Positions 29,528 through 53,524 of a stretch of DNA of 64,000 bases are shown piece after piece (the stretch's first letter is position 1; each line of letters opens with the position of its first letter). The stretch spans positions 2,069,501-2,133,500 of the forward strand of contig NZ_JAUSQV010000001.1 of assembly GCF_030811475.1 (NCBI RefSeq). Reading direction: 5' to 3'. The notes under the pieces were generated by a model. That model made no database searches, was not told the origin of the DNA, and worked only from the letters and a program-made list of their open reading frames with translations. The stretch comes from Nakamurella flavida. Lineage in GTDB: Bacteria; Actinomycetota; Actinomycetes; Mycobacteriales; Nakamurellaceae. The position numbers were made by a program, and so were the translations under genes.

Positions 29528-31690
29528 TCAGAACGGTGGTGGCTCATCGCGGCCCTCTCCCGGCTGCCGCGCTGCGGCGCCCTCATCTGGCGCGTCACTG
29601 CGGTCGGAGCGAGTGCGGAAGTGGTGGAGCAGGAGGAGGGAGACGAGATCGTCCTCGACGAGACCCGTACTCGGACCGTGTTCCGTGCTGACCACCGTCT
29701 CGTTCTCGGTGTGGGTGTCGGTGTCGTTCTCGGTGTCTCCTCCTGAGGTCGCGATCTCGTCGATGTCGCCGACCTGGCGTCTGCGAACACCCGCGGGATC
29801 TTCGTCGGTACCGCTGCCGATCCTGGTTTCTCGGGTCCCGGCACCGTCCGATTCGGCGATCCGCAGTCCTCGGGCAGTGGTGGGTCCGGTGTCCCACCGG
29901 CGGTGCAGGCGCTCCAGAACCTCGGGGATCGGTTCAGGATTGGTACGGGGAGCGGCGTCGTCCCGGTCGGGAGAACCGACCATGGGTTCGGGGTCGTAGA
30001 TGTCGATATTCATCCCGGGGAACAACGCCGCGGTGCCATCCGGACCGCCGGCAGCGCGCTTCCTCCACCGGAGGGGGACGGTGACCTGTCGGGGTGGGTC
30101 GGGGTAGGTGTGTCCGGTGGGGCTGGTCCAGGTGATGCCGAGGCCGGCGGGGTCGGTGGGTGAGGGCTGGTTTCGGCGCAGGGTCCAGTCGGTGTGGTGT
30201 TTGAACAGGTGGTGTCGGCGGCAGAGCGGGTCGAGGTTGGTCGTGGTGGTGGGTCCGCCGGCGGTGGGTCGGTGGTGGTCGTAGGGGTTGCGGTGGTCGA
30301 TGTCGCAGCGCCAGGCGGGTTGGCGGCAGGAGGGGAAGCGGCAGGAGTCGGCCAGGGCGGTGAGGTGATCACGCAGGTCTTGGCGTGGCCTGTACTGGTG
30401 GGTGCCGGCGTGGGTGACGGCGCCGGTGGTGGGGTCGGCGAGCAGGGTGCACAGGGATCCGGCGGAGGCGGCGATGGTGCGGGCCATGCCGGCGGTGATG
30501 GCGCCGTAGCCGGCGAGGTCGGCGGGCAGGTCGTCCAGGCCGGCGAGGGTGTGCAGGCCGAGGGTGACTTGAAGGTGGGGTCGGCGGCCCTGCCGGGACA
30601 GCCGGCGGGTGGCGCGCTGATCAGCGCGACCGGGGGTGACAGCCGGTCCGTTCACCGGCGGAAGCGTTGGTGTGGAGGTGATCTCGGTGCTTGCAAGCAT
30701 GCCGCCGACCCGGTGATCACCCGCGCCAGCGCCAGCCGCGCCGGTCGCGTCTGCCGTGAGATTGGTGTCGACCGTGACTGGGGTGTCGGCCGTGACTGTG
30801 GTGTCGGCCGCGACTGTGGTGTCGGGGGTGAGGTAGTCGGCCAGGTCGACCTGTCCGTGGGTGAGGATCTGCCCGGCCAGGTCGGTGAGCGCGTCAACCC
30901 GACGGGCCCCGATGGACCGGTCGTCGTCAGCGAACCCCACGGTGTGCGTGGCCAGGAGGTCGGCCAACTGGAAGATGCTGACCGCGCCGTCCGCGGCCAG
31001 ATAGGCCTTCAGGGTGGACATGCCGTCGGTGCCGGGCTGCACCAACAGCCCCCGCTCCCTGCGCGCCTGCTCGTGCCGTTCCTGGGCTCCGCGGGGGTCG
31101 ACCGTGATGACCGCGGCCGCGGTGGCCTTGCGGGTCGCCGCGGTGGACTGCGCAGAGGCGATCGGCAACACCCGGCCTTCCACCACACCGGCGAGGTGAG
31201 CGGGCAGCGGAGCGGTGTACTCCGCGATGACCCTGGCCTTGCCCCGGTCGATCACCCCGGCCGACAACGCCGCCAAGGTAGCGGGCAACTCGGTGCACAT
31301 CCGGATCGCGTCCCGGACCTTGACCCCGGCGGTGACCGGGGAGATCCGGAACGCCGCGGCGACCTCACCGGCGGCCATCGACTGCGCTGCGTCCAGCACG
31401 AAAGACCCCAGCACATCGGGATCGGAGTCGGCTGGACCGGTCACTTCCCGGCCGGCCAACCGACCCGCCAGCGCGTACGGATCTCCGGCCACGCCCGGGA
31501 CGGCGAACGCCGCCAAAGCTCGCATCTGCCACGCCGCCACCGCGGACATCAGCCGCTCGGACTCTGCGATCGCATCCACCAGGTCAGCACCGGACATCGC
31601 ACCCGGGTCGGCACGCAACAGGTCAGGCACGGCAAGGGGCGGGACGACGTCGGCCGCCGCCCCGCCCTGCTCGTTCCCGTCGTCGTACAT
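29528..31690 (-). CDS. DUF222 / HNH endonuclease-signature protein (13E12 family)
   Basis: A 720-residue protein with an N-terminal helical DUF222 region (LVDAIAESERLMSAVAAWQMRALAAF onward), a variable Thr/Val/Asp-rich middle (~280-330) and an HNH nuclease-like zinc finger near 465-520 (CRFPSCRQPAWRCDIDHRNP ... CRRHHLFKHH). An unusually long acidic, Thr-rich C-tail follows. In mycobacteria this is the REP13E12 family, found in multiple copies and used as a phage integration site; its activity is poorly known. TAGAAT ends 8 nt before the ATG, so probably leaderless. A 95-bp tandem array lies just upstream. Confidence 0.88.
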   Translation of the reverse strand: MYDDGNEQGGAAADVVPPLAVPDLLRADPGAMSGADLVDAIAESERLMSAVAAWQMRALAAFAVPGVAGDPYALAGRLAGREVTGPADSDPDVLGSFVLDAAQSMAAGEVAAAFRISPVTAGVKVRDAIRMCTELPATLAALSAGVIDRGKARVIAEYTAPLPAHLAGVVEGRVLPIASAQSTAATRKATAAAVITVDPRGAQERHEQARRERGLLVQPGTDGMSTLKAYLAADGAVSIFQLADLLATHTVGFADDDRSIGARRVDALTDLAGQILTHGQVDLADYLTPDTTVAADTTVTADTPVTVDTNLTADATGAAGAGAGDHRVGGMLASTEITSTPTLPPVNGPAVTPGRADQRATRRLSRQGRRPHLQVTLGLHTLAGLDDLPADLAGYGAITAGMARTIAASAGSLCTLLADPTTGAVTHAGTHQYRPRQDLRDHLTALADSCRFPSCRQPAWRCDIDHRNPYDHHRPTAGGPTTTTNLDPLCRRHHLFKHHTDWTLRRNQPSPTDPAGLGITWTSPTGHTYPDPPRQVTVPLRWRKRAAGGPDGTAALFPGMNIDIYDPEPMVGSPDRDDAAPRTNPEPIPEVLERLHRRWDTGPTTARGLRIAESDGAGTRETRIGSGTDEDPAGVRRRQVGDIDEIATSGGDTENDTDTHTENETVVSTEHGPSTGLVEDDLVSLLLLHHFRTRSDRSDAPDEGAAARQPGEGRDEPPPF

Positions 31691-31697
31691 GTGTTCG

Positions 31698-31703
31698 ATT
31701 CTA
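31698..31703 (-). promoter_or_regulatory. -10 box TAGAAT, leaderless start of the DUF222/HNH gene
   Basis: On the minus strand TAGAAT ends 8 nt before the ATG at 31690. It is the best TATAAT match among the start-proximal -10 boxes in the window. Confidence 0.5.
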
Positions 31704-31850
31704 ATGCTTGAACAGCAGGTCTACGAGACCCCATCGGAGTGACGGCAGCCGATCTGATCACCGCACCGGTAGCCGAATCGAAGACGCGCCATGTGCCTCC
31801 ACCGCCCATGCAGCCGCCCAGGACGACCGAGCCGAGCGTCGGTCGGCCAG

Positions 31851-32321
31851 GCGCGAACGCAGAGCAGCGCCCCACAGGGCTGAACCACCGTCCCCCTGAC
31901 CCACCCAGACCGCCCGCGGCGGACCCTCCCCACACGCGTGCGCAGGCGCGAACGCAGAGCAGCGCCCCACCGGGCTGAACCACCGCTCCCCTGACCCACC
32001 CAGACCGCCCGCGGCGGACCCTCCCCACACGCGTGCGCAGGCGCGAACGCAGAGCAGCGCCCCACCGGGCTGGACCACCGCTCCCCTGACCCACCCAGAC
32101 CGCCCGCGGCGGACCCTCCCCACACGCGTGCGCAGGCGCGAACGCAGAGCAGCGCCCCACCGGGCTGAACCACCGCTCCCCTGACCCACCCAGACCGCCC
32201 GCGGCGGACCCTCCCCACACGCGTGTCGCAGGCACGAACGCAGGGCAGCGCCCCACCGGGCTCACAGACCAGCGGTCTTCCTGACCCACCCGGGCCGTCC
32301 GTGGCGGACCCTGCGCCCGTG
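31851..32321. repeat. 95-bp tandem repeat array, about five units
   Basis: Units begin at 31851, 31946, 32041, 32136 and 32232, each opening with GCGCGAACGCAGAGCAGCGC or a variant. The central units are almost identical. The first differs at about three positions, the fourth carries a one-base insertion near its end, and the fifth is strongly diverged. As 95 is not a multiple of three, every unit is read in a different frame, so it does not encode a repeat protein. Units 1-4 carry on the minus strand a G3-N6-G3-N1-G3-N3-G4 quadruplex motif (offset 43-65). It lies upstream of the DUF222/HNH gene. Confidence 0.93.
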
Positions 32322-32459
32322 CGTGCCCGGGGACGACAGGGCGGGGCACTCCGCCCCGGAAGACGCCGGCGAGTACTTCCTGCCGTGGGCTGACGCGAGA
32401 AGGGTGGGGGCGACCGTCCCGGCCACCACGAGACTCGTGAGCCACCCGCGGATCGACAT
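32262..32459 (-). other. Possible truncated secreted-protein frame running into the repeat array
   Basis: A 65-codon frame beginning MSIRGWLTSLVVAGTVAPTL, which looks like a signal peptide, and ending inside the diverged fifth repeat unit. There is no clear Shine-Dalgarno sequence. It could be a gene remnant cut by the array or chance. I see no other gene between 32322 and 32681. Confidence 0.2.
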
Positions 32460-32681
32460 CACAGGAGCGCCGTCGTCCCCCGCCCCGACCGGGGCCATGC
32501 GAGGTCCGTCCGCCTTCGACCGATCCAGCACTCGCTCAGCAGGTGCGAATGCCCCGGTCATGGGATGGATCGGGCGCCCGGCTTCGTTGCACCCCCCGGC
32601 ACCGCAACGGTGCCGCGGTCGAACACCGGCGCCCCTCATCGGTGGCGTCGCACGTGCTCGACGAGGACGACGGAGGTCAGC

Positions 32682-33512
32682 ATGGCGCAGAAGACGTGGT
32701 TCATCACCGGTACGTCCCGAGGGTTCGGGCGGGAGTGGGCGATCGCCGCCCTGGATCGCGGCGACCGGGTGGCCGCCACGGCGCGGGACGCGAGCAGCCT
32801 GGACGAGCTGGTGCAGCAGTACGGCGACGCGATCCTGCCGCTGTCGTTGGACGTCACCGACCGGTCCGCGGTGTTCGCCGCCGTGGACCAGGCCCACCAG
32901 CGGTTCGGTCGACTCGACGTCGTCGTCAACAACGCCGGGTTCGGCCAGTTCGGCATGGTCGAGGAGGTGTCCGAGGCCGAGATCCGCGGCCAGTTCGAGA
33001 CCAACGTCTACGGGGCCCTGTGGGTGACCCAGGCGGCCCTGCCGTTCCTGCGTGAGCAGGGCAGCGGGCACGTCATCCAGGTGTCGTCCATCGGTGGGAT
33101 CTCCGCGTTCCCGAACATCGGCATCTACAACGGGTCCAAGTGGGCGCTGGAGGGCATCAGCCAGGCCCTGGCCGCCGAGGTGGCTCCGTTCGGCATCCAC
33201 GTCACCATCGTCGAGCCGGCCGGCTACTCCACCGACTGGAGCGGCTCGTCCGCCCAGCACGCCACGGCGATCGAGGCGTACGAACCTGCGCGTGAGCACG
33301 CCGCCGAGCTGCGCAAGACCCGCCAGGGCACCCCGGGCGACCCGGTCGCCACCCGTGCGGCGATCCTGCAGGTCGTCGACGCCGAGACGCCGCCGCTGCG
33401 CATCTTCTTCGGCGACGGGCCGCTCGCCCTGGCCACCCGGGACTACGAGTCCCGGCTCGCCGAGTGGCGAGAGTGGGAGCCGGTGTCCGTCGCGGCCCAC
33501 GGCAAGGTCTGA
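32682..33512 (+). CDS. SDR-family oxidoreductase
   Basis: A 276-residue short-chain dehydrogenase. Coenzyme motif GTSRGFG (9-15), NNAG at ~82, active-site Ser in QVSSIGG and the YxxxK pair in IYNGSKWALEG. The region after the active site (EPAGYSTDWSGSS) matches the classical group of ketoacyl-reductase-like SDRs. GGAGG lies 5 nt before the ATG. Substrate unknown. Convergent with the epimerase gene, with a hairpin between them. Confidence 0.9.
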   Translation: MAQKTWFITGTSRGFGREWAIAALDRGDRVAATARDASSLDELVQQYGDAILPLSLDVTDRSAVFAAVDQAHQRFGRLDVVVNNAGFGQFGMVEEVSEAEIRGQFETNVYGALWVTQAALPFLREQGSGHVIQVSSIGGISAFPNIGIYNGSKWALEGISQALAAEVAPFGIHVTIVEPAGYSTDWSGSSAQHATAIEAYEPAREHAAELRKTRQGTPGDPVATRAAILQVVDAETPPLRIFFGDGPLALATRDYESRLAEWREWEPVSVAAHGKV

Positions 33513-52579: not shown

Positions 52580-53524
52580 GTGCGGCACTCCCTGCGCCGG
52601 GCGGCGGTGACGGCGGCGGTGCTCGCGCTGCTGCTGGCCGGCTGCACCGGGACCGGGTCGGTTCCGGCGCCGACCCCCGGGGGTGCGGCACCCTCGACCG
52701 GCGCCGCGGCACTGGTCGCCCCCTCCGGCCCGGCGGCGGAGGCGCTGGCCGGGTTGGCCGTCGCCGACCGGGCGCCCTCGACGGGGTACTCCCGGGACGC
52801 CTTCGGGCAACGCTGGGCCGACGTCGACCGCAACGGCTGCGACACCCGCAACGACGTGCTGGCCCGGGATCTCACCGACGTGGTGTTCCGGGCCGGATCG
52901 GCGTGCGTCGTCGCGTCGGGCGTCCTGGCCGACCCGTACACCGGGGCCGCGATGCCGTTCCTCCGGGGTGACGGCACCAGCGACGACATCCAGATCGACC
53001 ACGTCGTCGCGCTCGCCGCGGCCTGGCGCACCGGCGCCCAGAGCTGGGACGAGCCCACCCGCACGGCGTTCGCGAACGACCCGCTCAACCTGCTCGCCGT
53101 CGACGGTGACGCCAACCAGGCCAAGGGCGACAGCGACGCGGCCTCCTGGCTGCCGCCGGCCGCGACGGAACGCTGCCCGTACGTCGCGCGGCAGATCGCG
53201 GTGAAGCAGCGGTACGGGGCCTGGGTCACGCCGACCGAGCGCGACGCGATGACGGCGGTGCTGATCGGGTGCCCGGGCGAGGCGCTGCCCGGATCACCGG
53301 GCCTGACACCTACCCCGAGTACCTCGAGCACGGCCGTCCCGACCACGGCCCCGGTGGCCGGCTGCCTGATCAAGGGGAACATCAACGGCGACGGCGAACG
53401 GATCTACCACCTGCCCGGGAGCCGCTCCTACGACGAGACCCGCATCGACACCGACCGGGGCGAGCGGTGGCTCTGCACGGAGCAGGACGCCGTGGACGCG
53501 GGCTGGCGTGCCCCCCGCACATAG
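52580..53524 (+). CDS. HNH-nuclease-like (DUF1524) lipoprotein with C-terminal sunset domain
   Basis: A 314-residue exported protein. Lipobox LLAGC gives C22. The central nuclease-like domain has DDIQIDHVVALAAAWRTGA (HNH His after Asp), then FANDPLNLLAVDGDANQAKGD, the conserved Asn/Lys segment of secreted DUF1524 nucleases. The last ~55 residues (GCLIKGNINGDGERIYHLPG ... GERWLCTEQDAVDAGWR) match the small sunset domain attached to other secreted nucleases. It likely cuts extracellular DNA for nutrients or defence. The GTG start lies 4 bp after the GntP stop, so the two may be co-transcribed although unrelated in function. Confidence 0.85.
   Translation: MRHSLRRAAVTAAVLALLLAGCTGTGSVPAPTPGGAAPSTGAAALVAPSGPAAEALAGLAVADRAPSTGYSRDAFGQRWADVDRNGCDTRNDVLARDLTDVVFRAGSACVVASGVLADPYTGAAMPFLRGDGTSDDIQIDHVVALAAAWRTGAQSWDEPTRTAFANDPLNLLAVDGDANQAKGDSDAASWLPPAATERCPYVARQIAVKQRYGAWVTPTERDAMTAVLIGCPGEALPGSPGLTPTPSTSSTAVPTTAPVAGCLIKGNINGDGERIYHLPGSRSYDETRIDTDRGERWLCTEQDAVDAGWRAPRT

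Follow-up and report, generated by a model that had tools for sequence, protein, structure and literature searches.

The ETR and QUB loci of mycobacteria are bacterial VNTR or minisatellites, with tens of base pairs per unit. The MIRU of mycobacteria are dispersed intergenic repeats with a unit of 40-100 bp. As to the DUF222/HNH (13E12) genes, we know of no function. 'REP13E12/HNH endonuclease/DUF222' is listed among repetitive elements in PMC10589994, and the match in PMC9674854 is to DUF2225 instead of DUF222. The literature searched, seen in part, yielded no description of tandem repeats in Nakamurella.

Here, we have analyzed a 95-bp tandem array in a stretch of 64,000 nucleotides (the window) belonging to the 4.32-Mb single-contig chromosome of Nakamurella flavida. 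The array is probably an ordinary non-coding minisatellite, and the DUF222/HNH gene family next to it is the more interesting part of the locus.

The 95-bp array and its spacer

The array consists of 4.8 head-to-tail copies with a period of 95 and 94% match (31848-32312, score 787), the highest score among the 13 TRF rows of the window. This bears out a preliminary description of the same DNA, in which about five head-to-tail units of 95 bp were claimed; the unit starts given there are 3 bp out of phase with those of TRF, which is immaterial. The features of the array and of its far flank are the following.

31848..31942, + strand, 95-bp unit 1 (TRF; 3-5 differences from units 2-4)
31943..32037, + strand, 95-bp unit 2 (TRF)
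32038..32132, + strand, 95-bp unit 3 (TRF)
32133..32227, + strand, 95-bp unit 4 (TRF; final two bases altered at the junction with unit 5)
32228..32325, + strand, diverged unit 5 (about 81% identity, small indels; the TRF array ends at 32312)
32228-32245 and 32309-32326, imperfect 18-nt inverted repeat of unit 5
31892..31915, - strand, G-quadruplex-like pattern of unit 1 (with G5)
31988..32010, - strand, G-quadruplex-like pattern of unit 2
32083..32105, - strand, G-quadruplex-like pattern of unit 3
32178..32200, - strand, G-quadruplex-like pattern of unit 4
32682..33512, + strand, divergent short-chain dehydrogenase (SDR) gene on the far side of the spacer

Any two of units 1-4 differ at 1-5 of their 95 positions, and strong divergence is found at the unit 5 end only. 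The earlier picture of inner units that are alike and outer units that have diverged thus applies mainly to unit 5, and the pattern of the array is consistent with unequal exchange, as had been suggested.

The array is located in a spacer of 991 bp between a DUF222 gene on the minus strand, the start of which is 158 bp away, and the SDR gene, which starts at a distance of 370 bp. A simple custom codon-based gene caller predicted no gene over the array, and the minus-strand ORFs that are open across it read each unit in a different frame; a repeat protein was rejected on both grounds. The preliminary description had come to the same view from the period, which is not a multiple of three, as expected of a non-coding minisatellite or VNTR, and head-to-tail, near-identical units of tens of base pairs are likewise characteristic of this class.

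The score of the array stands out in its genome. A sample of 864 kb of host DNA, made up of the window and 40 stretches of 20 kb, 2.5 kb being counted twice, contains ten intergenic arrays with a TRF score of at least 100, the 95-bp array included, and the runner-up reaches 262 vs 787. Outside this sample, an array of score 278 is found at L063, beside another DUF222 gene. On the chromosome contig the 95-bp array occupies approximately 2101348-2101826 (G000:C1), or about 48.6% of its length. If the contig begins at the origin, this place may be close to the replication terminus.

The search for further genomic copies of the unit that had been proposed was carried out, and only the five places of the array itself matched in the 4.32-Mb chromosome (40 of 72 first-look candidates scored). 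With unit 5 alone as the query, nothing else in the genome had an E-value below 0.004 (40 of 65 candidates scored). When the whole array was compared with 60 relatives, at most ten candidates being scored per genome, three weak matches of 38-60 bp were obtained, in G013, G040 and G042. Plasmids and phages gave no match at E 1e-5, and no exact 22-mer of the array was found in genome_contigs or viral_contigs, collections from which records close to the host genome may be absent. Since the unit was found at a single locus only in the genome, relatives, plasmids, phages and contig collections searched, a dispersed repeat family was rejected.

No array of this kind lies beside the other four DUF222 genes of the host genome, and none matches beside the best SDR relatives in five same-genus genomes; in these five relatives, matches were limited to the SDR gene itself and a pair of short scraps. 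The best SDR relative, in G011, is followed directly at its 3' end by an unrelated array, about seven copies of a 44-bp unit (L064 8299-8679). Between 31600 and 32800 neither a promoter-like (sigma-70-like) nor a terminator-like site was detected. These observations bear on a possible role of the array in cis regulation of, or protein binding for, the DUF222 or the SDR gene, in which a period of 95 bp, about nine helical turns, would place the sites on one face of the DNA. The position of the array between two divergent genes, close to the starts of both, and the near-identity of its units speak for such a role, which we nevertheless consider quite unlikely given the single genomic locus, the missing promoter-like site and the lack of a match to the array beside the relatives of both genes. 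The suggestion that the array is a control site of the DUF222/HNH element is not supported either, the unit having been found at this locus only and beside none of the other four DUF222 genes.

The minus-strand G-quadruplex motif reported earlier for units 1-4, and reported as lost from unit 5, was recovered by pattern search: G3-N6-G3-N1-G3-N3-G4, with four G runs of at least three and short loops, occurs in each of units 1-4, and the search gave no match in unit 5. When unit 3 was shuffled 5000 times with its dinucleotides preserved, such a pattern also arose on the minus strand in 14.5% of cases, and it is thus no commoner than composition predicts; it occurs on either strand in 41 of 557 intergenic 95-bp blocks of the host genome. 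The four motifs represent one motif copied four times and not four independent events, the copies carrying it because it was inherited by duplication. The motif is weak evidence for a function, as it is not rare for such C-rich DNA. That the array acts via minus-strand G-quadruplexes would fit the pattern in four successive units, yet the shuffles and intergenic blocks just mentioned, its absence from unit 5 and its occurrence in only 3 of the 24 arrays compared in the genus and in none of five further arrays make it very improbable.

A structured RNA was likewise rejected. When units 1 and 3 were folded as RNA, both strands included, the z-scores ranged from -1.35 (unit 3, minus strand) to 1.11, and those of the whole array, 1.16 and 0.23, are as unremarkable; unit 5 folds slightly better than its shuffles (z -1.7/-1.9). 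No Rfam family reached its gathering score in 31600-32800, the array included. Elsewhere in the window, ARAGORN reports a tRNA-Ala (CGC) at 52589-52683 (+) that is absent from the Rfam search and perhaps spurious.

The minisatellite reading is based on units 1-4 being nearly identical next to an end unit that has diverged, and on the fact that no other copy was found. A 95-bp piece of the long spacer would have been duplicated in tandem, and the units would then have been partly homogenized by replication slippage or unequal recombination. We infer both this mechanism and the absence of a function; in principle, selection instead of recent duplication could also account for the likeness of units 1-4.

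The DUF222 proteins and their C-terminal tip

A gene of the 13E12-type DUF222/HNH family, described in the earlier account as repeated and mobile in mycobacteria, had been placed next to the array. The following features belong to it.

29528..31690, - strand, DUF222 gene with HNH-like motif, 720 aa (Pfam PF02720, 71.2 bits)
30194..30343, - strand, HNH-like motif region, residues 450-499 (from a five-copy alignment, coordinates by arithmetic)
30763..30825, - strand, 18-bp repeats (a multiple of three) in the variable linker of the gene (TRF)
29528..29548, - strand, C-terminal tip DEPPPF plus stop, SSB-Ct-like, of the window DUF222 protein

The DUF222 assignment and the position of the array upstream of the gene are sound. 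The HNH part is less secure, the Pfam HNH match of the window protein being 13.2 bits against a cut-off of 21.4, with no listing for one of the five copies that the host genome contains, the window copy included. The HNH-like residues C450, C455, D465-H466, N485, C490, H493 and H494 are invariant across these five copies, all of which exhibit the same layout: an N-terminal DUF222 region, the HNH-like motif, a stretch of low conservation that spans about 170 residues of the window protein, and an invariant D-x-x-P-P-F end. The linkers carry short tandem repeats that vary from copy to copy, of 18 bp in the window gene and of 36 bp in another (L061 3153-3270). Many actinobacteria contain DUF222/HNH genes in several copies, and a match above the Pfam cut-off was obtained in 66 of the 81 genomes sampled from the order.

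The family is repeated, as had been stated, and no mobile unit with shared flanks was found. In two copies, DNA homology to the window copy continues past the start codon for 13 bp on the upstream side; in the remaining two it stops inside the gene. The flanks of the five copies share only scraps of 17-62 bp. A decayed DUF222 remnant in the spacer was rejected, as tblastn with the five DUF222 proteins gave E-values of 0.21-0.57 only. A mobile DUF222 element might recognize the array, as proposed in the preliminary description, or insert at it, which would agree with the presence of five DUF222 genes in the genome. Against this reading stand the absence of the unit from the other four genes and the scraps to which the flanks are reduced, and we hold this to be the most improbable of the readings considered. 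From the single locus and the lack of shared flanks it follows that the array is neither part nor a recurring target of a DUF222 element.

The conserved end of the DUF222 proteins resembles that of single-strand DNA-binding protein (SSB), a short tag with which bacteria recruit their DNA-repair machinery. In E. coli the SSB-Ct is DDDIPF, according to PMC10164576 and PMC11981726, and the former describes a hydrophobic pocket occupied by the terminal Phe, with weakened RecG binding upon loss of this Phe or a change of Pro. An acidic-PPF end is present on all five host DUF222 proteins (the window protein and those at G000:C1 1206774, 2815959, 3038423 and 3260648), and the pattern [DE][DE]xPPF-stop occurs exactly five times in the whole chromosome, and every occurrence terminates a DUF222 gene. 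The best host SSB (domain 2721158-2721457) has an in-frame DEPPF-stop at 2721653-2721670, the frame being derived by arithmetic, and falls short of the six-residue [DE][DE]xPPF pattern. Near the other two SSB-domain matches (4314500 and 111543) none of three tip patterns was found, so that a single one of the three host SSBs shows the likeness.

In the genus, the tip pattern occurs 35 times in 17 genomes (present in 11 of them) vs 6 times for the reversed control. At least 31 of the 35 adjoin a DUF222 match, among the matches listed, and the remaining four, for which no DUF222 match is listed, are at G004:C9:383, G016:C1:150592, G002:C1:2630595 and G008:C98:18640. Among 1677 complete predicted proteins, a sample mostly centred on DUF222 genes, PPF ends are found on 45 of 64 DUF222 proteins (fragments included) vs 0 of 1613 others, and PF ends on 51 of 64 vs 7 of 1613; the strict SSB-like tip is confined to DUF222 proteins within this sample.

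Outside the genus the picture is mixed. The tip is absent from 20 DUF222 proteins of two other families. Two plasmid-borne relatives, on plasmids 8 and 25 of Tsukamurella tyrosinosolvens (L296 and L298), end in DDPPPF and DEPPPF, two more from Tsukamurella plasmids in LAPPPF and DGPPPY, and a plasmid-borne Georgenia relative in DPPDQ, so that the tip is neither restricted to Nakamurella nor universal. The Pfam matches of the window DUF222 protein include no SSB (OB-fold) family. By analogy with the SSB-Ct, the DUF222/HNH proteins may bind SSB partners. No report of an SSB-like tip on DUF222 proteins was found in the literature searched, a scope in which subscription journals are largely not represented.

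Arrays near DUF222 genes in Nakamurella

Arrays of other units are present within 1.5 kb of three more DUF222 genes of the host genome (a 16-bp, a 49-bp and a complex 40-89-bp array), and no array of score 100 was found near the remaining one (L060). With the window included, four of the five genes have within 1.5 kb an array with a period not divisible by three (hereafter non-triplet). The host genome, the source of the idea of an association, is not part of the counts in the genus, for which we used 60 DUF222-centred stretches from 16 other Nakamurella genomes. Of these, 56 stretches from 15 genomes yielded a DUF222 gene and were counted; L253 (the sole stretch of G006), L255, L260 and L271 did not and were left out. 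Genes were taken from the simple custom gene caller, and intergenic arrays with a TRF score of at least 100 were counted. The non-triplet class had been named before the genus data and both classes were computed, and the p-values below are optimistic, because weight is placed on the class that shows more.

DUF222-adjacent spacers are longer than others (median 316 bp vs 156 bp for spacers of at least 50 bp in the 15 genomes). Within 1 kb of DUF222 genes there are 13 intergenic arrays in 110.5 kb, vs 14 in the 422.5 kb that lie more than 5 kb away (p 0.0014). When density is taken per intergenic base, arrays of all periods exhibit no excess (3.04 vs 2.63 per 10 kb, p 0.70), and non-triplet arrays number 11 near vs 4 far (p 0.035). 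Counted by spacer, non-triplet arrays are found in 11 of 97 DUF222-adjacent vs 10 of 427 other spacers (Fisher 3.6e-4, and at most 0.002 with any one genome dropped). The excess persists in a logistic fit adjusted for spacer length (p 1.2e-4), in which length itself has no clear effect (z 0.4 and -1.0), and spacer length alone may therefore not explain the neighbourhood.

For non-triplet arrays with a period of at least 30 the counts are 6 of 97 vs 6 of 427 spacers (Fisher 0.012), and with a score of at least 200 they are 4 of 97 vs 5 of 427 (Fisher 0.066, logistic 0.013). In spacers of at least 300 bp there are 10 of 50 vs 4 of 94 (0.0055), or 7 of 47 vs 3 of 89 when the length of the array is subtracted (0.032). 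Arrays of any period occupy 12 of 97 DUF222-adjacent vs 24 of 427 other spacers (Fisher 0.025), and no clear excess is seen for any period with a score of at least 200 (5 of 97 vs 11 of 427, p 0.19-0.21, Fisher 0.19). Compared with length-matched genes, DUF222 genes have non-triplet arrays in 10 of 57 cases vs 4.9 expected (P 0.021). At the level of loci, 11 of 56 DUF222 loci have such an array, vs a mean of 2.8 when a random gene is drawn per locus, and none of 20000 draws was as high.

The arrays themselves are mostly unrelated. Thirty were compared by blastn (E 1e-3), namely 24 from the genus, that of the window, four more from the host genome and the one beside the SDR gene of G011, and the only matches between loci were those between two DUF222 loci of G004; the units at all other loci compared are unrelated. 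The two G004 arrays (L247 8524-8945 and L248 11018-11219) are 83% alike and have the same orientation relative to the gene, and possibly represent a duplicated DUF222 gene with its tail.

One explanation for this neighbourhood starts from the proteins. A putative DUF222/HNH nuclease would be brought by its SSB-like tip to single-stranded DNA or replication forks, would cut or nick near its own gene, and template-switch repair would leave tandem duplications, one minisatellite per locus. The non-triplet excess in spacers after length adjustment, the random-gene draws, the four of five genes in the host genome and the restriction of the strict tip to DUF222 proteins, with five DUF222 ends in the host genome, point in this direction. 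The absence of an all-period excess per intergenic base, the lack of a clear excess of any-period arrays with a score of at least 200 and the modest result of the length-matched comparison point away from it. A DUF222 protein ending in PF is found at 10 of the 11 array loci, the exception being L272, which carries an array and whose DUF222 protein has no tip. At 20 DUF222 loci of two other families no array was found, a result that is uninformative with 0.21 expected. On balance, we regard this explanation as unlikely.

In the minisatellite reading, the array would adjoin the DUF222 gene largely since the DUF222 genes of the genus occupy longer spacers, in which mostly unrelated arrays arise, and for the residual excess beyond spacer length the DUF222 gene or its product may promote local rearrangement too. 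We read the neighbourhood effect in Nakamurella as real but modest, aided by long spacers and perhaps going beyond them. Should the link between DUF222 genes and minisatellites hold in a larger spacer-matched sample, it would connect local instability of the genome with a nuclease-like family.

The neighbourhood link and the SSB-like tip, taken together, allow a bolder reading centred on single-stranded DNA and forks. Actinobacterial DUF222/HNH proteins would be nucleases with a mimic of the SSB tip that dock on SSB partners such as RecG, RecO or PriA at ssDNA gaps or forks and cut the DNA at these places. Recombination would spread or convert their copies, and locus-specific minisatellites such as the 95-bp array would be the scars. 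This proposal seems to us improbable as it stands. The tip itself, nearly confined to DUF222 proteins in the genus, leads to a direct hypothesis on where these proteins act, and the 95-bp array, taken by itself, offers hardly more than a candidate marker for strain typing.

Comparison with described systems

With the MIRU of mycobacteria the array shares a unit of 40-100 bp, an intergenic position and a high GC content; MIRU units are dispersed over many loci, whereas the 95-bp unit is found at one locus only. The likeness to the REP13E12/DUF222 family lies in the neighbouring gene, with its DUF222 region, HNH-like motif and five genome copies. It differs in that no mobile unit with shared flanks was found, and the array is not part of one. 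The DUF222 proteins share with SSB a layout in which a poorly conserved linker leads to a conserved acidic-(P)PF end (DEPPPF in the window protein, DEPPF in one host SSB), a likeness seen at the level of sequence, with the difference that the tip is carried by proteins without an SSB domain. The mycobacterial VNTR or minisatellite loci (ETR, QUB) are, like the array, intergenic, with head-to-tail, near-identical units at one locus.
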